From Acidimicrobiales bacterium AG-410-I20 (GTDB taxonomy: Bacteria; Actinomycetota; Acidimicrobiia; Acidimicrobiales; MedAcidi-G1), in the NCBI GenBank assembly GCA_003215175.1, contig QCKS01000015.1, forward strand, positions 1 to 33,027: DNA of 33,027 bases, given 5' to 3'. The notes under the pieces are model-generated. The model saw nothing but the letters and a program-made list of their open reading frames with translations. It ran no database searches and was not told the origin of the DNA. Both the position numbers and the translations under genes were made by a program. Below are positions 17,701 to 33,027 of the stretch, one piece after another. Each line of letters starts with the position of its first letter. The stretch's first letter is position 1.

Positions 17701-18603
17701 ATGGCAAAGAAATGGCGCGATCGAGTCACTGAGAACACCGTAGAACTCTTTAGTCACGCCCCAGATCCTTTAGAGAACACTTTTGACCATTTAGGAGATC
17801 CAGGACTTTTTGGTCCTGATTCCGTCACTTGGCTAGTTATGAGCGATGTTGCTTCTTTTATTGGTGGTATAAGAGCGCTAATCGTGCAAGCTGCTCATCC
17901 TGAAGTAGCTGCTGGGGTTAGCGATCACTCCCAGTATGAACAAGATCCGCTAGGGCGACTTTCACGAACAGCGTCCTACGTTACGGCAACAGCATATGGA
18001 TCAATGGCCGAAGTAAATCAATCAATTAGGGCTGTTCGATTCGCTCATCGGCCAGTATCAGGGATCTCTCATCGCGGAAAAGAATATTCAGCAGATAAAT
18101 CTGATCTCGCCGCTTGGGTTCATAACGCCTTGATTGACTCTTTTCTCACTGCATACCGCATATATGGTTCTCGCTCGATGACTCAAGCGGAAGCCGATAC
18201 TTACGTTCTAGAGCAAACTCGTCTTGGAGCCCTACTAGGAGCAGATCCTTTACCTTCTGATGCTAATTCTCTGTCTTGCTGGCTAGCTGAACATCCTCTG
18301 GTTGACACGTCTCCCGCCGGTAGCGAGGCCCGTAAATTTTTAGCTCGACCTCCCCTACCTTTATTTATCTTGGTCGCTTACAAAATTCTTTTTTATGCTG
18401 CTGCTGCCACTGTCCCACGCCAACTAAGAAAAGCTGTGGGAGTCCGAAATCTACCCGGTGCTCGTATCGGAGGGCATATTTTGATCAGAATCCTACGTTT
18501 TGCTCTTGGCTACTCGCCAGCATGGGGAGCTGCCTTGGATCGTTGTGACCAGCCACGCCCAGCAAAAGAACGAATAAGAGATACTTCGGGTACAACTAGA
18601 TAA
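17701..18603 (+). CDS. DUF2236 / MpaB-type oxygenase-family protein
   Basis: 300 residues. It contains the DUF2236 (ER-bound oxygenase mpaB/mpaB'/rubber oxygenase catalytic domain) pattern: GDPGLFGPDSVTWLVMSDV near the N-terminus, RALIVQAAHPEVAAGVSDHS, DPLGRLSRTASYVTATAYG, AVRFAHRPVSG and AWVHNALIDSFLTAY. The conserved His residues in AAHP, FAH and WVH are the likely heme or metal ligands known from latex-clearing protein relatives. The substrate in bacteria is generally unknown. A hydrophobic stretch near residue 222 may touch the membrane. It lies 23 bases after the OmpA-like gene, with a weak ribosome site, and just before an FAD oxidoreductase. Confidence 0.82.
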   Translation: MAKKWRDRVTENTVELFSHAPDPLENTFDHLGDPGLFGPDSVTWLVMSDVASFIGGIRALIVQAAHPEVAAGVSDHSQYEQDPLGRLSRTASYVTATAYGSMAEVNQSIRAVRFAHRPVSGISHRGKEYSADKSDLAAWVHNALIDSFLTAYRIYGSRSMTQAEADTYVLEQTRLGALLGADPLPSDANSLSCWLAEHPLVDTSPAGSEARKFLARPPLPLFILVAYKILFYAAAATVPRQLRKAVGVRNLPGARIGGHILIRILRFALGYSPAWGAALDRCDQPRPAKERIRDTSGTTR

Positions 18604-20380: not shown

Positions 20381-20412
20381 ACTTGATCTACCAGACAGCT
20401 TTTGGATCAAGT
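20381..20412. other. Inverted repeat at convergent gene ends
   Basis: ACTTGATC (20381-20388) and GATCAAGT (20405-20412) form a perfect 8-bp stem with a 16-base loop, spanning the last codons and stop of paaC and lying just past the lipoprotein stop. The plus-strand side is followed by AAAAAG and the minus-strand side by ATTTAGC, so neither has a real U-tract. It may be a weak bidirectional terminator. Confidence 0.35.
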
Positions 20413-21137
20413 AAAAAGACTTCTCTTATTCTTCCAAACAAGTAATCAAAATCAGAATGCCTTTGGGTTCTATTTTCATTATCCGCTTGAATAAACAACC
20501 CTGAATCTAATACCCCAAATCTTTCTTCAAGTCGTGTGCGCCAAATCGGAAGCAGGTCAGAATATTTTCCTGAAACTACTCCACAAGAGATTGCCTCTTC
20601 TTCTCCAGGAATAGGAGAAAATAATCCAAGAACTTGAGGAACTACTACCTCCAAAGCATTCATCAAACGCAACTTGCTGTCAGGAACCATAAGCAAGTTC
20701 TCAACAAGTGCTTCAGCATGACGGCGATGATAAGTCTCTTCTTTTAAAGCCCGCTCGGAAATTGAAATTAATTCAGGTAGCGACGAATCACTAAAAAGCT
20801 CCCAACGTAGATCTTCCGCCATGTCATAACACCAATGTCTTATTAATGCCTCTTCCCACCTTCGGTGGGTTGATTCAACTAACTGGCAAGATCGCCATTC
20901 TTCAGATTTACGATTAAAAACGTAAGTATCAATGCCTGAAGGACATTCCAATATCAACGTATATAACATCAAAGCATGACCTAATTCATCTTGGCCAATA
21001 CTGGCAAAAGCCATATCTTCTTCCAAAAAAGGGGCTACTCCTATCCATTCGGTATGTTGCTGACCCATCAAATGTTCATCATCTGCAAAAGCCAGTAAAT
21101 ACTCTTTTACTGGAGGGGTAAGAACTGAATCATTCAT
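20388..21137 (-). CDS. paaC: 1,2-phenylacetyl-CoA epoxidase subunit PaaC
   Basis: 249 residues of the ferritin-like PaaC family, the structural partner of PaaA in the epoxidase that converts phenylacetyl-CoA to its ring-1,2-epoxide. Visible features are HTEWIGVAPFLEEDMAFASI near residue 30, QDELGHALMLY, and RALKEETYHRRHAEALVENL around residue 130. The DELGH and EETYH segments keep ExxH-type diiron ligand patterns. It is the last gene of the cluster and starts 8 bases inside the end of paaB. The subunit assignment is strengthened by the adjacent paaA, paaD and paaB. Confidence 0.9.
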   Translation of the reverse strand: MNDSVLTPPVKEYLLAFADDEHLMGQQHTEWIGVAPFLEEDMAFASIGQDELGHALMLYTLILECPSGIDTYVFNRKSEEWRSCQLVESTHRRWEEALIRHWCYDMAEDLRWELFSDSSLPELISISERALKEETYHRRHAEALVENLLMVPDSKLRLMNALEVVVPQVLGLFSPIPGEEEAISCGVVSGKYSDLLPIWRTRLEERFGVLDSGLFIQADNENRTQRHSDFDYLFGRIREVFLLDPKAVW

Positions 21138-21411
21138 TGTTTTTCTTGTTTCGTTGTAGCTTTCTCCAGCGCGCTACTCTTTCTCCGTCGTTATGGCGAT
21201 GTGGCTTATCTAAGTTTGAATCGATAAATCCTTCTTCGCTCACACAAATATTTTCTCGATTAACTAACCACATATGGGTACCTTCTGCGCGTCGCGCATA
21301 ATTCTCACGCGCTAGCACTAAAGCAAGTTCATCGGTTGCTGCTTCAATACTTCCTGCATGACGGAATTCTTCTTTTCCATCTGGTTTAAGAAAAACTTCA
21401 TAGACACGCAT
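21130..21411 (-). CDS. paaB: 1,2-phenylacetyl-CoA epoxidase subunit PaaB
   Basis: 93 residues, the normal size. It has the PaaB pattern: YEVFLKPDGKEEFRHAGSI, AATDELALVLARENYARR, then EGTHMWLVNRENI. PaaB is the small non-catalytic subunit that bridges PaaAC heterodimers in the epoxidase. It starts 2 bases after the paaD stop and overlaps paaC by 8 bases, so expression is coupled. Confidence 0.92.
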   Translation of the reverse strand: MRVYEVFLKPDGKEEFRHAGSIEAATDELALVLARENYARRAEGTHMWLVNRENICVSEEGFIDSNLDKPHRHNDGERVARWRKLQRNKKNNE

Positions 21412-21413
21412 AT

Positions 21414-21881
21414 TTAATCCCGGAGAACCTCTATAACTTCACGACAATTTCTACAAAGATGTATTGATCTACAGCGACTCGGACCAAAATGGGATTTCTT
21501 ATCTGTCATAGATTTGCATCTTGGGCATTCAACTCTTTCGTTTATTTGTACAGCAACAGTGAAATTTTCTGCAAGATCTTCTTTTGCCTTTGCTGTGATC
21601 CGATCTACAGTCCAGACCGGAGTGTTCAGCCACTGAACATCTACTTTTTTTACTCCCGGTACTCCTCTAACAACTTCCTCGATGTCTTGAGCGATAACAC
21701 CTAAAGCCGGACAACCAGAAAAAGTTGGTATGAGTTCTACTAACACTTCATAAGCCGTATTAATCTCTATATTTTCTAGTAAGCCTAAATCAACTATTGA
21801 AATCCCTGGGTACTCAGGGTCATTAACAGTATTTATCGCTGTATGAATATCCTGAATTGAAGTCGAATTATTTGATGTCAT
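21414..21881 (-). CDS. paaD: PaaD, epoxidase maturation protein (MIP18 family) with zinc-ribbon-like C-terminus
   Basis: 155 residues from the ATG at 21881, chosen because it forms an ATGA overlap with the paaA stop; the open frame extends upstream into paaA but without a better start. The N-terminal DUF59/MIP18 domain has VNDPEYPGISIVDLGLLENI and PTFSGCPALGVIAQDI, where the Cys is the conserved reactive residue of this family. The C-terminus holds Cys pairs ECPRCKS and LCRNCREV, typical of PaaD. It is thought to help Fe-S or metal assembly of the epoxidase. Its position between paaA and paaB departs from the usual paaABCDE order. Confidence 0.92.
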   Translation of the reverse strand: MTSNNSTSIQDIHTAINTVNDPEYPGISIVDLGLLENIEINTAYEVLVELIPTFSGCPALGVIAQDIEEVVRGVPGVKKVDVQWLNTPVWTVDRITAKAKEDLAENFTVAVQINERVECPRCKSMTDKKSHFGPSRCRSIHLCRNCREVIEVLRD

Positions 21882-22792
21882 GTCGCAACTTTTTCCAGAG
21901 CTTCGCGAACCCAACTTGACTTCTCCCAACTCTCTGACGCCTCAGAAATACGTCGAGCTGAATCAGGACCTCCCATAGCTAATGTCCGTTTTAAGGGCTC
22001 CCAGTCAATAGGGCCTATCTCCCACCGATTTTCTTCTTTATTCCATCTCAAGTCTGGGTCAGGAATAGTAAATCCATATCCTTGTAAAAGAGGCACGAAT
22101 TTCTGTATCCATCGATCACGTAGAACCTCATTTCTTTCAGATTTTATGTGCCAACGAAGTAGCAAATCATTCGGCTTTGAATCTGGTCCAAACAACTGAA
22201 GTGCGGGCCACCACCAATCATTTATTGAAGACTGGAACATGCTTCTTTGGATTTGTGTTCCCTCAGCAATCCGTAGTACAGATTCCTCTCCAAATCGGAG
22301 ATGAAAACCCTCTTCAGCAATGATTCTTTTAAGGATCCGTTTGTAAGGACCATAAGAACAGTTCTTGAAAACTGCCTGTTGACTTACAAGAGCTGCCGCG
22401 TCTACAAGAAAAGCTATCGCTACTTGGTCTCCCCAAGTTTTAGCTCGATAGTGAAATACATTATGAAATTTACTTTTACCAGCAAAGAGATCTCTCATCA
22501 TTTCTTGGCGTGTTTTTATTTGTAAATCTGCAGCAACCATGTACAAAAGATGAGCATGACCTATCTCATCTTGTGTTTTAGCTATTACAGACATTTTGTG
22601 ACGTAACCCAGGCGCTCTGGGTATCCAATCTCGTTCTGTTAAGCCACCCATGAGTTCGCTGTTCGCATGCATTTCTATGAAGTCAAAGACAGCCTGACGA
22701 TATTCTGTGGGCATTTCATCAACTGGTTCAACAATCCCGCCACTATCTAGAAAATTTTCAAAAGTTTCTAAAGAATCCCATGACCGGTTCAT
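21878..22792 (-). CDS. paaA: 1,2-phenylacetyl-CoA epoxidase catalytic subunit PaaA
   Basis: 304 residues of the diiron ferritin-like monooxygenase family. Diiron ligand segments are ANSELMGG (Glu46), IAKTQDEIGHAHLLY (Glu76, His79) and IIAEEGFHLRFGEE (Glu161, His164). FQSSINDWWWPALQLFGPDS is a characteristic PaaA block. It is the catalytic subunit that inserts one oxygen atom into the ring of phenylacetyl-CoA. AGGAG stands 7 bases before the ATG. It is the first gene of the A-D-B-C cluster, downstream of an A+T-rich divergent spacer shared with the LLM oxidoreductase. No CoA ligase (paaK) or reductase (paaE) is adjacent. Confidence 0.95.
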   Translation of the reverse strand: MNRSWDSLETFENFLDSGGIVEPVDEMPTEYRQAVFDFIEMHANSELMGGLTERDWIPRAPGLRHKMSVIAKTQDEIGHAHLLYMVAADLQIKTRQEMMRDLFAGKSKFHNVFHYRAKTWGDQVAIAFLVDAAALVSQQAVFKNCSYGPYKRILKRIIAEEGFHLRFGEESVLRIAEGTQIQRSMFQSSINDWWWPALQLFGPDSKPNDLLLRWHIKSERNEVLRDRWIQKFVPLLQGYGFTIPDPDLRWNKEENRWEIGPIDWEPLKRTLAMGGPDSARRISEASESWEKSSWVREALEKVAT

Positions 22793-25395: not shown

Positions 25396-26904
25396 ATGAC
25401 ACTTAAAACGCAGGCAAAAAAACCAACCATTCTTGTTATGGGAGATCAAATCAATAGGAACATTTCTTCTCTTATGGGCCACTCCCCTTCCACCGCTCGA
25501 ATTCTTATGGTTGAAATTGAAAAAAAATTTGATTCTAACCAATGGCATATTCAGAAAGCTCATTTGATTCTTTCTGCAATGCGACATTTTGCTGATGAAC
25601 TTCGGCAAGAGGGTTTTGAAGTTGACTATCGGGTTTCAAAGGATTTAGTTACCGGCATCACTGAGCACTCGAAAGAATTCATGCCAGAAGAAATGATTGT
25701 GATGGAGCCAATGAATTGGAATGGTCAAAAGATTGCTGAGAAATGTGGTCTCAAAATCATAAGAAACAATCAGTTCCTCTGCCATTATGAAGATTTTGCT
25801 GGATGGGTGGACTCTCGTAAGTCATTCAAAATGGAAGATTTTTACCGTTGGCAGCGTAAACGGCTACAGGTTCTAATGGACGGAGATTCTCCAATTGGTG
25901 GAAAATGGAATTTTGACCATGAAAACCGTGAACGGCCTCCTCAAGATGGTCGGAAATGGCCAGAAGTTAAATTATTCACTCATGATCAAATTGATAAAGA
26001 GGTTTTAAGTAGTTTGGGCAATGCCTGGGGGGCAGTTCCAAAAGGAGTCTGGCCCGTAACAAGAGAACAAGCTCTAATCCGATTAGATGAGTTTATTCAT
26101 GACGCTTTACCAATATTTGGACCATACGAAGATGCAATGCTCAGCCAAGAATGGAAATTAGCACACTCAGTTCTTAGCTCCTCGTTAAATATTGGACTAT
26201 TACATCCCAGTGAGGTGGTCGCAGCAGCCGAATTTTCTTATCACGATGGTAATGCTCCAATTAACAGCGTTGAAGGTTTTATTAGACAAATAATTGGATG
26301 GCGAGAATACGTCTGGGGCTTGTACTGGCTTTGGATGCCGGAATATAGGAATTCAAATTATTTAGAAGTCAATCGAGAAGTGCCTCCTGCTTTTCTAGAA
26401 AAAGATGCTACAGAAATGGCGTGCATTAGTGGAGCTATGGACCACTTGCATGAGTATGCGTATACGCACCATATTGAAAGACTTATGGTCTTTGGAAATC
26501 TTTCTTTAACTAGTGGATTAAATCCGCAGGGTGTAACTAATTGGATGTGGTCTCGTTTTATTGATGGTGCAGAATGGGTAATGCTGCCAAATGTTTTAGG
26601 AATGGCTGTTCACGCTGATGGCGGGAAAATGGCAACAAAACCCTACGCCTCTGGTGGAGCTTACATAAATAGAATGAGCAATTACTGCTCGGATTGCATT
26701 TACGATCCTAAAAAACGTAGTGGAGAATTAGCCTGCCCTTTTACTACTTTGTATTGGGATTTTCTTGCTAGAAACGAAAATAAACTTTCTAACAACCCGC
26801 GGATGGGTCAACAATACGCTGGATTAAGAAGGCTTTCGAATCTTGATGAGGTCCGCAATAGAGCTTCAGAAGTACTGTTTCACCTTGACGACGGAACCCT
26901 CTGA
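25396..26904 (+). CDS. Fe-S bacterial cryptochrome/photolyase (FeS-BCP, PhrB-like)
   Basis: 502 residues of the cryptochrome/deoxyribodipyrimidine photolyase-related family. Four cysteines, Cys343 (MACISG), Cys431 and Cys434 (NYCSDCIYD) and Cys447 (LACPFTT), have the same spacing as the [4Fe-4S] ligands described for Agrobacterium PhrB (88, 3 and 13 residues apart). THHIERLMVFGN contributes the His of the (6-4) repair site, GWREYVWGLYW and AEWVMLPNVLGM line the FAD pocket, and KPYASGGAYINRMSNY is a family signature. The likely role is light-driven repair of (6-4) photoproducts or light sensing. The N-terminal antenna domain starts ILVMGDQIN. It is divergent from the small membrane protein and DUF2071 unit. 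Confidence 0.93.
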   Translation: MTLKTQAKKPTILVMGDQINRNISSLMGHSPSTARILMVEIEKKFDSNQWHIQKAHLILSAMRHFADELRQEGFEVDYRVSKDLVTGITEHSKEFMPEEMIVMEPMNWNGQKIAEKCGLKIIRNNQFLCHYEDFAGWVDSRKSFKMEDFYRWQRKRLQVLMDGDSPIGGKWNFDHENRERPPQDGRKWPEVKLFTHDQIDKEVLSSLGNAWGAVPKGVWPVTREQALIRLDEFIHDALPIFGPYEDAMLSQEWKLAHSVLSSSLNIGLLHPSEVVAAAEFSYHDGNAPINSVEGFIRQIIGWREYVWGLYWLWMPEYRNSNYLEVNREVPPAFLEKDATEMACISGAMDHLHEYAYTHHIERLMVFGNLSLTSGLNPQGVTNWMWSRFIDGAEWVMLPNVLGMAVHADGGKMATKPYASGGAYINRMSNYCSDCIYDPKKRSGELACPFTTLYWDFLARNENKLSNNPRMGQQYAGLRRLSNLDEVRNRASEVLFHLDDGTL

Positions 26905-27051: not shown

Positions 27052-27540
27052 TCAATTTTTTACTGAAATTTCAGAAACTTCCCCACCAGATGCAGTAACT
27101 AAATCCTCCGGACCTATGGAAAAGACAGCATGAGGGGTTCCCGCTGCGGCCCATACTTCGTTGTAACCAAGAAGATCTTTGTCTATAAACACTCGGAGTT
27201 TTTGTCGCAATCCGAAAGGGGGCACCCCTCCAATAGAAAATCCTGTGGCTTCTCTTACTGTATGAGCATCCACTCGTTGACATGCTTCTCCCCCGGCTAC
27301 AGAAGCAAGGCTTGATTCGTCTAACTGATTCTTTCCGCTCACATAAGCTAAAACAAGTTCATTATCTACTTGAAAAATGAGGCTCTTTACTATCTGGCCG
27401 ACATCAACTCCAATAGCATCAGCCGCTTCTTGAGCGGTTCTTGTGCTCTCAGGAAAAGTTTTTGGCTTAACTATGACGCCAAGCGTCATTCCAGTTTCTA
27501 CAACACGCTGGGTGGCTTCAGGTAATTCTTGATTATCCAT
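27052..27540 (-). CDS. YbaK/EbsC-family aminoacyl-tRNA deacylase
   Basis: 162 residues, the usual size of free-standing YbaK-domain proteins. Features are the catalytic-lysine strand VGQIVKSLIFQVDNELVLAY (about 46-66), SGKNQLD, and the C-terminal SIGGVPPFGLRQKLRVFID with AGTPHAVFSIGPEDL. Family members hydrolyse mischarged aminoacyl-tRNA, such as Cys- or Ala-tRNA(Pro). Which substrate applies here cannot be told from sequence alone. It starts 61 bases after the P450-UbiB fusion on the same strand, so it may share its transcript. Confidence 0.9.
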   Translation of the reverse strand: MDNQELPEATQRVVETGMTLGVIVKPKTFPESTRTAQEAADAIGVDVGQIVKSLIFQVDNELVLAYVSGKNQLDESSLASVAGGEACQRVDAHTVREATGFSIGGVPPFGLRQKLRVFIDKDLLGYNEVWAAAGTPHAVFSIGPEDLVTASGGEVSEISVKN

Positions 27541-27601: not shown

Positions 27602-30553
27602 TTAATTACTTTTTTCTTGATCTGCTTCATGGTTGAATACATGATTTCGAATGCCTGAACCAGATGGCAGCAACCGGTCAGCCATAACGTCTCTGCGTCT
27701 TGTGAGGTCGCGCCAAGTAAGGGCTTCAACATCATCTCTTATTCCAGCCGCACGCCTAAATGATGCTTCAGAAACTTGAAGATCATTTATCCCTAGTCCA
27801 AGTTCTGCAGAAACCCTAAATCCATGTTTGGTTAAAAACCCGGAGCTGATTGTTGAGAATTCTTCTAACAAATCCATATCGGGGTCTAACTTCTGAACAA
27901 ATGAGGCAAGGTAAGCAAAGTTCTTCACAAATAGCATTAATTCCTTAGGTATTCGAGCCCCACTAGCAAGTAATTCTTTCAAAAGTTGCTGAAATTCTGA
28001 AACAAACTGTTCCTCTGTAAGTTGAAGCGGGTCAAAATCTATTCGATCTAATTGGAGCTTTTCTATAAGTTCACTCACGTCAGTATCTGGAGGAAAAGCC
28101 CCCAAATCTCGCACTGCTAATACTTGAGATTCAACATCGCCAGACATCAAGCTTGTGATGTAACGAAGAAATGAAACCCGTCGATCATGATCAAGTCGAC
28201 CTACCATGCCATAGTCGACAAGGCCAATAACCCCGTCTTCAAGAACAAATAAATTTCCCGCATGGAAATCTCCGTGGAAAATGCCATGAAGAGCAGCTCC
28301 TTCTAATAGCCCACCTACCATATTTCTAAATAAGTCACGAGCAGCTGTTTCATTCAGTTGTTCTGAATCAAGCCGAGTTAGTGGAATCCCTGGTACACGC
28401 GACATAACGATTACACGATTAGTGGTTTTATCAAGAACTGGGTTTGGAGCAACCCATTGACTCTTATTTCCTGTCGCTAATGCTCGTCGAATTTCAAACA
28501 AGTTGGCTACCTCTAGGCGAAAATTCAGTTCTTCGGATATTGTTTCTGCAAAAAGTTGAACTAATGCTGGCGGGTTAGCTAGTGCCGAAATTGGTATTCG
28601 TCCAACTAAACGAGGAGCTACCCATGCCAATACACGTAAATCACGAACAACCTTTTTTTGTATTCCGGGTCTTTGAATCTTAACTACTACATCAGATCCA
28701 TCTTTAAGCGTTGCATTATGCACCTGAGCTATAGAAGCAGCAGCAAATGGTTCTATTTCAAATTCTTTGAACTCTTCATTTACTTTCCCGAGGTCTCCAC
28801 GAATAATACGATTAATTCTCCACCACTTAGCAGGTTTTGCTTGATCTCGGCATCGTGAACATTCATCGACTAGAGACTGAGGGAAAACACCTTCAGCGGC
28901 AGAAATCAACTGTGCCAATTTCACATAGGTGGGCCCTAGACGTTCAGCAGCGATACGAAGCCGTCGATAAAGAGACTCTGTTCTTTTTTCTTTGGAAAGT
29001 TTTCGATCAAGAATTTTCCAACTTAAAAAAGCCAAGCCAAAACGAACAGTTGTATGAATCAATCTTGTTATTGGAGGAAGTGTAGGAGCGTTAACTAGAC
29101 GTGGTATTCCTGAGGAAATTGCTTTACGCACTTCATGAGCATCCTGAATCCACTTATTTTCATAATCTGGGGCTGTGGTCCCTTTATTAAAAGAACCTTC
29201 AGTTTTATTACTTTGGAAGTTCAAGTGATGGTTTACTTCTTCATTAACTGGTTTGTCCAATATCTGAAATTCAAGTTTCTCTGGGCCCCAAATACCCATT
29301 GAAAGCGGCTTCCAAGTCACGGGAGAAGTCAACTGAAACGCTGGAACAGCGTCTAAGAATGCATTCAAAGCCTCTTGAAGTTCAGCTCGAGCGAGAGCCG
29401 CTCCAAGACAATGATGAGCGCCTAATCCAAACCCTAAGTGTGGGGCTCGGTCTGAGCGACTCAAATCAAACTGAAATCCGCTATCTGGTTGCCCTAAACC
29501 TGCAGCATGAAGGCCTAAAAATACTGTGGTTCCTGCCCGAAAAAACAAACCATCAATTACAGAGTCTTCAGTAGCTACACGAGCCGTTGTCCTCACGGCT
29601 CCTATATATCGAAGCGATTCTTCTACTGCTGCTGGAACTAACGACCGGTCTTGTCTTAATTTCTCATATTGATCTGGTTGTGTAGCGAGCACCGCTAATA
29701 GAGAACCAAGTTGATTTCTTGTAGTGTCCGTCCCGGCAAGAAGAATTGCTTCAATCATTGCTACGAGTTCATCTGTACTCAAACGGTCTTCTTCATAGCT
29801 CGCTTGAACTAAATCGCTTACTAGATCGGCATGGGGGCAACTTTTTCGATCTGCTACAAGATCTGTTGTATACTGATCCAACTCTTGTTGAGCGATAGAG
29901 ATTCCTTCTAGCCGTTCTAAAACAGCACTTGCATCAGCATCTAGTGCAGAGAAAATCGTGTCTGCCCACATTCCAAACTGATCCTGATCAGTGTCATCGA
30001 TTCCTAAGAGTCGACAAATCACTGGGATTGGGTAAGGCCTGCAGAATTCTTCTACCAAATCACCGCCACCTTTTTGCTTTAAGGACTCAAGCAAATTTGA
30101 AGCATGTTCATACATAAATGGTCGTAACGATTCACTACTTGCTGGAGTAAACGAAGAATTAACCAGCCTCCGCAACCGTCGATGATCTTCGCCTTCTACG
30201 GAAAGAACATTAGGCCTCATTTGTAATTGTTGACTTGAGCCGGGCAGCAATTCTCTAGCTTTTTCAACCAAGACCTCAAGATCTAAATCCATTGTTGCTT
30301 CTGCTTGGAAAGTATTTAGGCCAGAAAGAACAGTTATCCAAGAAGAGTCACGTAATATTTCGCGGGTTTGGTCATATCCGACAATCAACGGTCCGGCAGG
30401 TGTCCTAACTGCCCAATGTCCCGACTCATGAAGATTTTCAGTGGCTTGAATAAGTTCTGAGAAGTCTGAAATCTCAAAATCTACAAAAGGGAGTGAGCCT
30501 GGGGCGCTTACATCAACTAGTTGCGAAGTATGTTCGTTACTGCTCAAGTTCAT
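27602..30553 (-). CDS. Fusion of cytochrome P450 and UbiB/ABC1 atypical kinase
   Basis: One continuous frame of 983 residues holds two complete enzymes. Residues about 20-430 are a bacterial cytochrome P450: HRRLRRLVNSSF (helix C), AGTDTT (273-278, oxygen-activating helix I), EESLRY with the ExxR pair Glu312/Arg315, and heme-binding FGLGAHHCLG (Cys382). After a polar linker (about 430-480), residues about 485-905 are a UbiB/COQ8/ABC1 protein: LGPTYVKLAQLIS (the KxGQ motif changed to KLAQ, 545-548), the Ala-rich loop AAASIAQVH (604-612), Lys625 in VVVKIQRPG, EELNFRLE, catalytic HGDFHAGN (760-767) and metal-binding DYG (780-782). The last 75 residues are polar with no membrane helix, unlike anchored UbiB. 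No Met codon lies in the linker, so a separate UbiB product would need an alternative start. The substrate is unknown; a lipophilic isoprenoid is a reasonable guess. Confidence 0.93.
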   Translation of the reverse strand: MNLSSNEHTSQLVDVSAPGSLPFVDFEISDFSELIQATENLHESGHWAVRTPAGPLIVGYDQTREILRDSSWITVLSGLNTFQAEATMDLDLEVLVEKARELLPGSSQQLQMRPNVLSVEGEDHRRLRRLVNSSFTPASSESLRPFMYEHASNLLESLKQKGGGDLVEEFCRPYPIPVICRLLGIDDTDQDQFGMWADTIFSALDADASAVLERLEGISIAQQELDQYTTDLVADRKSCPHADLVSDLVQASYEEDRLSTDELVAMIEAILLAGTDTTRNQLGSLLAVLATQPDQYEKLRQDRSLVPAAVEESLRYIGAVRTTARVATEDSVIDGLFFRAGTTVFLGLHAAGLGQPDSGFQFDLSRSDRAPHLGFGLGAHHCLGAALARAELQEALNAFLDAVPAFQLTSPVTWKPLSMGIWGPEKLEFQILDKPVNEEVNHHLNFQSNKTEGSFNKGTTAPDYENKWIQDAHEVRKAISSGIPRLVNAPTLPPITRLIHTTVRFGLAFLSWKILDRKLSKEKRTESLYRRLRIAAERLGPTYVKLAQLISAAEGVFPQSLVDECSRCRDQAKPAKWWRINRIIRGDLGKVNEEFKEFEIEPFAAASIAQVHNATLKDGSDVVVKIQRPGIQKKVVRDLRVLAWVAPRLVGRIPISALANPPALVQLFAETISEELNFRLEVANLFEIRRALATGNKSQWVAPNPVLDKTTNRVIVMSRVPGIPLTRLDSEQLNETAARDLFRNMVGGLLEGAALHGIFHGDFHAGNLFVLEDGVIGLVDYGMVGRLDHDRRVSFLRYITSLMSGDVESQVLAVRDLGAFPPDTDVSELIEKLQLDRIDFDPLQLTEEQFVSEFQQLLKELLASGARIPKELMLFVKNFAYLASFVQKLDPDMDLLEEFSTISSGFLTKHGFRVSAELGLGINDLQVSEASFRRAAGIRDDVEALTWRDLTRRRDVMADRLLPSGSGIRNHVFNHEADQEKSN

Positions 30554-30775: not shown

Positions 30776-31969
30776 ATGAAAAAGGTTAATGGCATGGCTG
30801 GGCCTATGAGACTGTACGACACTGCATCTCAAACAATAAAGGTCTTCGACCCTGAAATTTCAACAAGTATGTATGTCTGTGGTATCACCCCCTATGACGC
30901 GACTCATCTTGGTCATGCCTTTACGTACTTGACCTTTGACCTAGTTATTAGACGACTTGAAGACCTCGGCCATGAAGTAAAAATGGTTCGAAATGTAACA
31001 GATGTTGATGATTCCATTCTTCCGAAAGCCAGAGAGCTCGGCATTCATTATCAAGATCTAGCTGCTAAAGAGATGAAGCAATTTAATAAGGACATGATTG
31101 ATCTGAATATGAGGCCTGCTTTTACTGAGCCCAGAGCAACAGAATCCATTGACGCAATTGTGAACTTAATAAAACAACTTAAAGAAGCTGGTCATACTTA
31201 CATGGTGGATGGCGTTACCTTCTTTGATACCTCCACTTTTGATTCATTTGGCTCTATTTCTGGTTACGACGAAGAAACTATGAAAACTTATGCTGCAGAA
31301 CGTGGGGGCCGACCAGATGACCCAAAGCAGCGAAATCCACTTGATTTCGTTTTGTGGCAGCCTTCCGCTGCTGACGAGCCCTCATGGGATTCTCCATTCG
31401 GAGTTGGACGCCCTGGCTGGCATATCGAATGTTCTGCAATGGTAATGAGTGACCTAGGTGAGACCATTGACCTTCATGGGGGTGGAGAAGACTTAATTTT
31501 CCCCCACCATGAGTGTGAAGAAGCGCAGAGTAAAGCTGTAACAGGTAAACCACTAGCTCGACACTGGATGCATGTAGGAATGGTTGCTTACGAAGGCACA
31601 AAGATGTCTAAGTCTTTGGGAAATCTCGTTTTTGTTCGCGATTTATGCAGTAAATATGATCCTCGGGCCCTGAGGCTTTCTTTATTAGGTCATCACTATA
31701 GATCTGGGTTTGAATGGTTTGATGAAGATATCAATAAAGGCGTTGAACGGCTTGATAGGTTAATCAAAGCATCACAGTGTTCCAAAGGGCCTGATTCTTC
31801 TTCTCTTCTTTCTTCTGTACGGAATGCTCTTGATAATGATTTGGATACATGGAGTGCGCGCGAGTCGCTTGACCTATTCGCTAAAGAAACCCTCGAGGGA
31901 GTAGAAGAGGACTCGAATGCTGCTTCAACTCTTAGTGAAGCAGCAGCGTTACTCGGTGTTTTAATTTAG
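30776..31969 (+). CDS. mshC: Cysteine:GlcN-Ins ligase MshC (mycothiol biosynthesis)
   Basis: 397 residues. MshC is an ATP-dependent, CysS-like ligase that joins cysteine to glucosaminyl-inositol in mycothiol synthesis. The diagnostic N-terminal block is MYVCGITPYDATHLGHAFTY; CysS has GPTVYD and HARS-type residues at the same places. Zinc ligands are expected at Cys35, Cys219 (WHIECSAM) and His244 in FPHHECEEA. HLGH and KMSKS (276-280) bind ATP. It lacks the long C-terminal tRNA-binding region of CysS, as expected. The start may be the ATG at 30776 or the ATG at 30794, which has AAAAAGG in front of it. It follows tRNA-Arg and precedes cysS by 41 bases. It is good evidence for an actinobacterial host. 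Confidence 0.93.
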   Translation: MKKVNGMAGPMRLYDTASQTIKVFDPEISTSMYVCGITPYDATHLGHAFTYLTFDLVIRRLEDLGHEVKMVRNVTDVDDSILPKARELGIHYQDLAAKEMKQFNKDMIDLNMRPAFTEPRATESIDAIVNLIKQLKEAGHTYMVDGVTFFDTSTFDSFGSISGYDEETMKTYAAERGGRPDDPKQRNPLDFVLWQPSAADEPSWDSPFGVGRPGWHIECSAMVMSDLGETIDLHGGGEDLIFPHHECEEAQSKAVTGKPLARHWMHVGMVAYEGTKMSKSLGNLVFVRDLCSKYDPRALRLSLLGHHYRSGFEWFDEDINKGVERLDRLIKASQCSKGPDSSSLLSSVRNALDNDLDTWSARESLDLFAKETLEGVEEDSNAASTLSEAAALLGVLI

Positions 31970-32010
31970 CGCTCACTTCTTAAGTATCAGGTCTGTTGTA
32001 TCCTGATCTA

Positions 32011-33027
32011 ATGCTTTGCTTTGCCGATAGTTTGACTGGAAACAAGAATGAGTTCGTGCCTCGAGACTCTGGGAAAGTTTCTATTTATTGGTGTGGCCCC
32101 ACTGTCTACGATATTCCACACCTTGGTCATGCCCGTTCTTCTTTAGCATTCGATGTATTAGTTCGCTACTTGAAATGGTCTGGTTATGAAGTGACCGCTG
32201 TTTCAAATATCACCGATATTGATGACAAAATTATTGAACGCGCCGCTACGGAAGGAACAACAGAACCTGAACTAGCAAGGCTATACGAAGAAAAATATAT
32301 AGAGGAGATGGATCGGCTAGACATCATCCGCCCTGATTATCGACCCCGAGCTACAGAGTACATCGATGAGATGATCGCTATTATTCAAGATCTTGTAAAT
32401 AGAGATATGGCTTATTCAACATCTTCTGGGGTTTACTTCTCAGTAGAAAAACTTGATGACTACGGAGCTTTAGCTCATCAGTCTCTTGACCAACTACGAG
32501 AAAATGCTGGTACTCGAGTAGAGGTGGATACTGAGAAACAGGATCCACTTGATTTCGCTCTTTGGAAAGCAGCAAAACCTGATGAACCTGCTTGGGAATC
32601 ACCTTGGGGTTTGGGTCGTCCTGGATGGCACATTGAATGTGTCGCAATGTCTCTAGACCTATTAGGTGATGACTTTGATATTCATGGCGGCGGTGACGAT
32701 CTCATGTTCCCACATCATGAAAATGAACGAGCAGAGTGCGTTGGATGTGATCGACTATTTGCCAGAACATGGGTTCATAACGGGATGGTTCAAGTTGACA
32801 ATGAAAAAATGTCTAAGTCTCTCGGTAATTTTCTTACTCTTAATGAACTACTAAGTTCTTGGGATCCACGGGCTCTTCGCTTGCTAGTTCTCCAAACTCA
32901 TTATCGAAGAACAATGGAAATAAATGAAGATGGAATGGAAGCAGCAACTGCAGCTCTTGACCGGCTAGATAGTTTCGAACGAAGAATAGATGGAATGGAT
33001 TTACCCAAAATGGGTCCTGCTACTGAT
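32011..33027 (+). CDS. cysS: Cysteinyl-tRNA synthetase CysS, 3' partial
   Basis: The frame runs open from the ATG at 32011 to the right edge, 339 codons without a stop, so the gene is cut by the window. The start gives the normal CysS N-terminus: MLCFADSLTG, then IYWCGPTVYDIPHLGHAR with zinc ligand Cys28 and the ATP-binding HLGH. Next come VSNITDIDDKIIERA, RPGWHIECVAMSLDLLG, DIHGGGDDLMFPHHENERA and EKMSKSLGNFLTL. It charges tRNA-Cys with cysteine. GPTVYD and HHENE distinguish it from the adjacent MshC, which arose from CysS by ancient duplication. No strong ribosome site is visible in the 41-base gap after mshC. Confidence 0.95.
   Translation, partial: MLCFADSLTGNKNEFVPRDSGKVSIYWCGPTVYDIPHLGHARSSLAFDVLVRYLKWSGYEVTAVSNITDIDDKIIERAATEGTTEPELARLYEEKYIEEMDRLDIIRPDYRPRATEYIDEMIAIIQDLVNRDMAYSTSSGVYFSVEKLDDYGALAHQSLDQLRENAGTRVEVDTEKQDPLDFALWKAAKPDEPAWESPWGLGRPGWHIECVAMSLDLLGDDFDIHGGGDDLMFPHHENERAECVGCDRLFARTWVHNGMVQVDNEKMSKSLGNFLTLNELLSSWDPRALRLLVLQTHYRRTMEINEDGMEAATAALDRLDSFERRIDGMDLPKMGPATD

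Follow-up and report, generated by a model that had tools for sequence, protein, structure and literature searches.

A cytochrome P450 fused to a UbiB/COQ8-type domain in marine Acidimicrobiales and its association with light-response genes

Gene organization of the window

The window, which is the whole stretch of 33,027 nucleotides that was analysed, is a contig of Acidimicrobiales bacterium AG-410-I20. It carries a gene of the minus strand (27602..30553) that encodes a protein of 983 amino acids, in which a cytochrome P450 is followed by a UbiB/ABC1 domain. From the ATG at 30553 to the stop codon at 27602 the gene formed one frame of 983 codons, while the plus strand across the same interval was full of stops. 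The single-frame P450-UbiB fusion described in an earlier note on this DNA was thus confirmed and its strand, which the note had left unstated, was assigned.

A gene for a protein with a YbaK-like aminoacyl-tRNA editing domain (27052..27540, minus strand; PF04073) is co-directional with the fusion gene and begins 61 bp downstream of it. This neighbour was conserved in the genus and is probably unrelated to the fusion. A gene for a deoxyribodipyrimidine photolyase-related protein (25396..26904, plus strand; PF04244) is convergent with the fusion gene at a distance of about 700 bp. It was the only nearby gene of the window linked to light, and it was found beside the fusion in three of the five fused genomes of the genus. 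Apart from this gene, the window genus lacked the light-response cluster described below. No CarH regulator was matched in the source genome, which is 83% complete, and no strong match was found in the genus.

On the other side of the fusion gene, two class I cysteinyl-tRNA-synthetase-type genes stand in tandem on the plus strand (30776-33027), the first encoding 397 aa and the second running off the contig end. The two are probably MshC and CysS, and the first is a conserved neighbour of the fusion within the genus. Farther away in the window are two PaaA/PaaC-type di-iron proteins and a PaaD-like FeS assembly protein, a phenylacetate-type oxygenase module (20388-22792, minus strand), and a protein with an MpaB/rubber-oxygenase-type catalytic domain (17701-18603, plus strand; PF09995), possibly an oxygenase of hydrophobic substrates. 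A glycerophosphodiester phosphodiesterase lipoprotein with a long threonine run after its signal region is encoded at 1126-2199 on the plus strand.

Domains and conserved residues of the fusion protein

The P450 domain was assigned to residues ~19-435 (29249..30499, minus strand) from the PF00067 match, the alignment and the structure match of model residues 19-434. An alignment-defined linker of residues ~436-483 (29105..29248) joins it to the UbiB/ABC1 domain at residues ~484-963 (27665..29104), assigned from PF03109, a TIGR01982 match below cut-off, and COQ8A and a mycobacterial ABC1 protein in the PDB. In Pfam, PF00067 matched residues 107-400 (E 1.1e-25, 90.8 bits against a cut-off of 22.8) and PF03109 matched residues 568-808 (E 1.1e-53, 182.3 bits against 22.9). 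Since both domains scored above the curated cut-offs, a chance open frame was excluded. In a phmmer search of the PDB the first half retrieved P450s, and the second the mycobacterial ABC1 protein and COQ8A/COQ8B. The second half scored 257 bits with TIGR01982, the UbiB equivalog of the ubiquinone pathway, below its cut-off of 487.55, indicating a member of the same family and not a UbiB orthologue.

All motifs listed in the earlier note were found at the places it gave, and their key residues were invariant in an alignment of 21 fused proteins (relatives 52-87% identical). In the P450 half these were A273, D276 and T277 of AGTDTT (273-278), E312 and R315 of ExxR (312-315), and the heme ligand Cys382; a tail reading WKPLSMGIWGP is specific to the family. 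The P450 signature of I-helix AGxDT, ExxR and the FxxGxxxCxG heme loop was also present when counted across 45 fused proteins. In the UbiB half, invariance extended to K545 and Q548, A604, A606 and S607 of the A-rich loop (604-607, reported earlier as AAAS), K625, E674 and E675, HGDFHAGN (760-767), and D780 and G782 of DYG (780-782), so the signature of A-rich loop, Lys, HGDxHxxN and DxG was invariant or nearly so. The KxGQ position read KLAQ (545-548) in 21/21 aligned fused proteins, with K and Q unchanged and G replaced by A. KLAQ was also read in 10 of the 39 rows classed as standalone UbiBs, a set that includes some truncated copies of fused genes. The linker was the least conserved stretch, yet the spacing from GIWG to KLAQ was near constant at 116-122 residues.

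No ferredoxin, flavin or reductase domain was found in the fusion, Pfam giving P450 and kinase-like domains only. The "self-contained" enzyme proposed earlier was therefore not borne out; with no electron-transfer module fused, external redox partners are needed. No segment of the protein reached transmembrane-like hydropathy. An integral membrane protein is thus not supported, and the product would be at most peripheral to the membrane.

An AlphaFold2 model built on a 78-sequence alignment had a mean pLDDT of 85.4 and a pTM of 0.85, superseding a poor run with 21 sequences (pLDDT 65). Residues 19-434 of the model superposed on solved P450s, with P450BioI first (VIA Z 43.1, rmsd 2.3 over 370 residues); the nearest solved P450s were CYP107-like, P450BioI and steroid P450s. 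The VIA results covered the P450 half only, and the UbiB half was thus assigned by sequence.

Distribution and origin of the fusion

After removal of duplicates, at least 45 distinct fusion proteins were recovered from three families of marine Acidimicrobiales, and 45 distinct full-length ones kept both P450 and UbiB motifs. Across 397 whole genomes of the order the fusion was found in families f1, f27 and f59 only, and it was absent from about 360 genomes elsewhere in the phylum Actinomycetota. A scan of GTDB contigs gave 34 loci, assigned by label to Acidimicrobiales or other Actinobacteria apart from one Gemmatimonadetes contig. At 80% query coverage, no fusion was found on plasmids. Standalone UbiBs of 41-46% identity were present in most other families of the order, and the other P450 matches of the same genomes were frames of ordinary length without a UbiB match.

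The source is a contig of a draft, incomplete genome, so an assembly artefact or a chance open frame had to be weighed. The fused relatives came from independent assemblies, including AG-439-B19, a single-amplified genome by its name, and this refutes the artefact reading; both domains, moreover, lay far above their Pfam cut-offs. The chance that the frame is spurious is negligible, and that the fusion itself is real is virtually certain. A stop or frameshift in the linker, named earlier as a refutation, was not seen: the linker was open in all complete relatives, and none was split. An apparent split into two ORFs at locus L063 was ruled out because the break was a scaffold gap of Ns. Longer frames at L024 and L031 had no P450 match and were rejected as fusions.

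In a tree of the UbiB domain, all fused copies formed one group with support of 100, apart from every true standalone. Five entries inside this group labelled as not fused proved to be fused genes truncated at a locus end or at the N gap of L063. The P450 tree again placed the fused copies in one clade, and the extra rows within it (L017, L063 and L125) were all cut copies. Both trees were quick ones with SH-aLRT support only. Since each half forms a single clade, the fusion arose once. The fusions of the window genus nested within the copies of family f59 at 72-78% identity and were only ~52-60% identical to the other copies of their own family. This suggests that the gene was probably transferred between the window genus and f59. 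Across the whole set, the proteins had diverged to about 50% identity with the fusion retained.

Light-response genes around the fusion in relatives

In four of the six deep branches of the fused family, the fusion gene lay in or beside a light-response cluster. The members of this cluster were a CarH/LitR-type B12 regulator, a DNA photolyase, an FAD oxidoreductase, an SDR-DUF2867 protein, a DUF1295 protein and an acyltransferase. In several f59 genera the order was FAD amine-oxidase-like enzyme, fusion, regulator with HTH and B12-binding domains, SDR-DUF2867 and DUF1295, with the acyltransferase and DNA photolyase convergent. The FAD oxidoreductase lay upstream of the fusion across a gap of mostly 41-149 bp, and the regulator gene began either within ~20 bp of the fusion stop or, as many copies showed, with a 4-bp overlap of it. 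Genus g108, whose fusion is 57% identical, had the full set. Genus g4 had a reduced set of regulator, SDR and photolyase, with DUF1295 and the acyltransferase in one locus, and genus g2 was rearranged, the photolyase lying 6-7 bp or ~385 bp downstream together with the FAD oxidoreductase, DUF1295 and SDR. The cluster was missing from the two remaining deep branches, g32 (f27) and g64 (f59).

The regulator examined at L045 contained HTH_17, B12-binding_2 and B12-binding domains, the expected set of HTH, 4-helix B12 and cobalamin-binding parts, and regulators of three loci carried a Wx9EH motif, as known from CarH; the match to the CarH model was weak and far below cut-off. No CarH-type operator (TGTACA pairs) was found. 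Among the identified cluster genes there was no P450 ferredoxin or reductase, and none of the cluster genes occurred near the standalone UbiB or P450 relatives. This neighbourhood in the relatives is the strongest hint at function. Since in most lineages the fusion shares its locus with a photolyase, enzymes of lipid and redox metabolism and a repressor of the B12 photoreceptor type, its reaction probably belongs to a response to light or photo-oxidative stress; for the lineages with the cluster we consider this association likely.

A light-inducible LitR-type cluster of Pseudomonas contains a photolyase, a short-chain dehydrogenase, an FAD-dependent oxidoreductase and UfaM (PMC9758184). Common to both is a LitR/CarH-type regulator adjoining photolyase, SDR and FAD oxidoreductase genes. 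The putatively light-inducible cluster described here differs in having the P450-UbiB fusion, DUF1295 and the acyltransferase and no carotenoid genes, with UfaM named in Pseudomonas.

An ancestral operon with separate P450 and UbiB genes beside the light cluster was sought in the wider order and none was found; CarH-like genes stood there in other contexts. In a sister genus within the family, one locus (L145; G018, C68) had CarH-like, SDR-DUF2867, DUF1295 and photolyase genes without the fusion. In several genomes of family f54 (L196, L198, L199 and L206), a distant UbiB homologue of 26-29% identity was located ~3-6 kb from a CarH-like gene.

Co-occurrence, habitat and proposed function

The family sample comprised 48 genomes, 14 of them with the fusion; these are incomplete drafts. 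SDR-DUF2867 was present in 9/14 fused and 1/34 unfused genomes of the family (Fisher p 1e-5, kinship ignored). Published depth data place MedAcidi-G1 and MedAcidi-G2B at less than 150 m, with the remaining genera chiefly in dark water (PMC10205998). The fusion was found in 11/17 genomes of the photic genera against 3/31 of other genera (p 1e-4, kinship ignored). Rhodopsin occurred in 10 of 67 genomes searched, all ten with the fusion, kinship being ignored, and within the family in 3/14 fused and 0/34 unfused genomes (p 0.02, kinship again ignored). Both the light-response cluster next to the fusion and the enrichment of the fusion in photic-zone genera within the family are new here.

The phytoene/squalene synthase family PF00494 was present in only one of the 48 family genomes (G038, fused) and in none of 26 further fused genomes. 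This near-absence makes carotenoids, hopanoids and squalene-derived lipids unlikely substrates, and the terpenoid substrate suggested earlier is correspondingly improbable where it is of the carotenoid or squalene type. The host family makes menaquinol (PMC10205998), and COQ8 is proposed to use its ATPase activity to pull CoQ precursors out of the membrane so that other enzymes can process them (PMC8346625).

From these data we propose that the fusion is a UbiB-assisted P450 that acts on a membrane lipid as part of a response to light or photo-oxidative stress, to which we give a probability of about 0.4. The UbiB module, as a COQ8-like ATPase, would bind and hydrolyse ATP at the membrane surface and would help to draw a hydrophobic lipid out of the membrane or keep it bound; menaquinone and acyl/prenyl lipids are the likeliest candidates. 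The P450 module, receiving electrons from a ferredoxin and a reductase that are separate proteins, would insert oxygen into this lipid. We infer that the modules are active as ATPase and as P450, that the substrate is a lipid which passes from one module to the other, and that light induces the gene. In its most specific form, put forward more tentatively, the proposal is a novel type of natural P450 fusion whose ATPase module hands a membrane lipid to the attached P450, the whole acting as a light-induced membrane-lipid or menaquinone oxidase of sunlit-ocean bacteria.

The P450 might instead be a catabolic or secondary-metabolite enzyme acting on an external or secondary hydrophobic compound (terpenoid, steroid or xenobiotic), with the UbiB part helping with the ligand and the light genes incidental. 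Many Acidimicrobiales P450s are thought to degrade organic matter (PMC10205998), the closest solved structures include CYP107-like and steroid enzymes beside P450BioI, an enediyne cluster contains UbiB-family genes (PMC9464397), and two fused branches do without the light cluster. However, four deep branches have that cluster, its genes closely spaced and in part overlapping, and the fusion tracks the photic genera although P450s overall are more numerous in deep ones (PMC10205998). We therefore regard a catabolic role as somewhat unlikely.

Comparison with known systems

How UbiB/COQ8 proteins use ATP and lipids has long been debated, in part owing to the difficulty of finding their client enzymes. 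The second half of the fusion resembles COQ8A, COQ8B, UbiB and mycobacterial ABC1 proteins (PDB 5yjz, 7cy2) in its ABC1 domain, A-rich loop, HGDxHxxN, DxG and the K and Q of KxGQ, a likeness evident from sequence. It differs from them in reading KLAQ for KxGQ, in its N-terminal P450 and lack of a transmembrane segment, and in a host family that makes menaquinol (PMC10205998). The first half is a complete P450 like the class I bacterial enzymes (CYP107-like, P450BioI), with AGTDTT, ExxR, heme Cys and a VIA Z of ~43, to which the fusion adds the C-terminal UbiB domain and the family-specific tail. As in the self-sufficient P450 BM3 (CYP102), the P450 is N-terminal in a natural fusion, but the partner is an atypical ATPase/kinase and not an electron-transfer module. 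Known P450 fusions are thereby extended beyond redox partners. The earlier note knew of no described system of this architecture, and no description of a P450-UbiB/ABC1 fusion was found in the open-licence literature either (subscription journals lay outside the search).

The finding ties an ABC1-family protein to light-response gene clusters of bacteria among marine Actinomycetota. Plant plastid ABC1K kinases are likewise ABC1-domain proteins tied to photo-oxidative stress and prenyl lipids; they are eukaryotic and without a P450 fusion, and the analogy is functional only. If the fusion were a light-induced lipid oxidase, ABC1-family proteins would have a link to light stress in bacteria too, and not just in plant plastids. 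With both modules in one soluble-looking protein, ATP hydrolysis and lipid oxidation could potentially be measured together.

UbiB-P450 gene pairs elsewhere

On plasmid pMMRN of Mycobacterium marinum, UbiB and P450 were encoded by overlapping genes (L228, 2668-5323). The four nearest chromosomal relatives of this UbiB, from Mycobacteriaceae and another family of the class (L229-L232), had an adjoining P450 in 4/4 cases; in one of these the P450 gene comes first and overlaps UbiB by 4 bp. No adjoining P450 was seen for the 26 UbiBs next in rank, and the standalone UbiBs of the order Acidimicrobiales had none within short flanks, while a similar pair was found in one other Acidimicrobiales genome (L074). 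Like the fusion, these Mycobacterium-type pairs encode UbiB and P450 side by side, with mostly overlapping ends; unlike it, they are separate genes, mostly UbiB first, and their P450s are only ~27-38% identical to the fused one. Such a distant relationship suggests that the pairing arose more than once. The occurrence of unrelated P450s beside other UbiB genes in mycobacteria and their relatives indirectly supports a functional UbiB-P450 link, and covalent fusion together with recurrent pairing would name a P450 as a client of UbiB.

Gene pairing would also fit a UbiB part that serves the attached P450 as a regulator or chaperone (in heme loading, folding or ATP-gated control) without handling substrate. 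The kinase-like fold with its kinase-type Pfam matches points the same way, and the predicted pTM of 0.85 across both domains would be compatible with a fixed contact. However, the motifs typical of UbiB ATPases (A-rich loop, HGDxHxxN, K and Q of KxGQ) show no variation, and the other P450 matches of the same genomes are frames of ordinary length that lack a UbiB match; we judge a UbiB part confined to such a role unlikely. That two independent enzymes share one chain by accident or for equal amounts, with uncoupled chemistry, is very unlikely: the linker is the least conserved part and a shared substrate is only inferred, but the fusion was kept through divergence to ~50% identity, never split in complete relatives, and other UbiB and P450 genes were paired independently.

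On the M. marinum plasmid, the UbiB-P450 pair was followed by DUF4129, MoxR and DUF58 genes.
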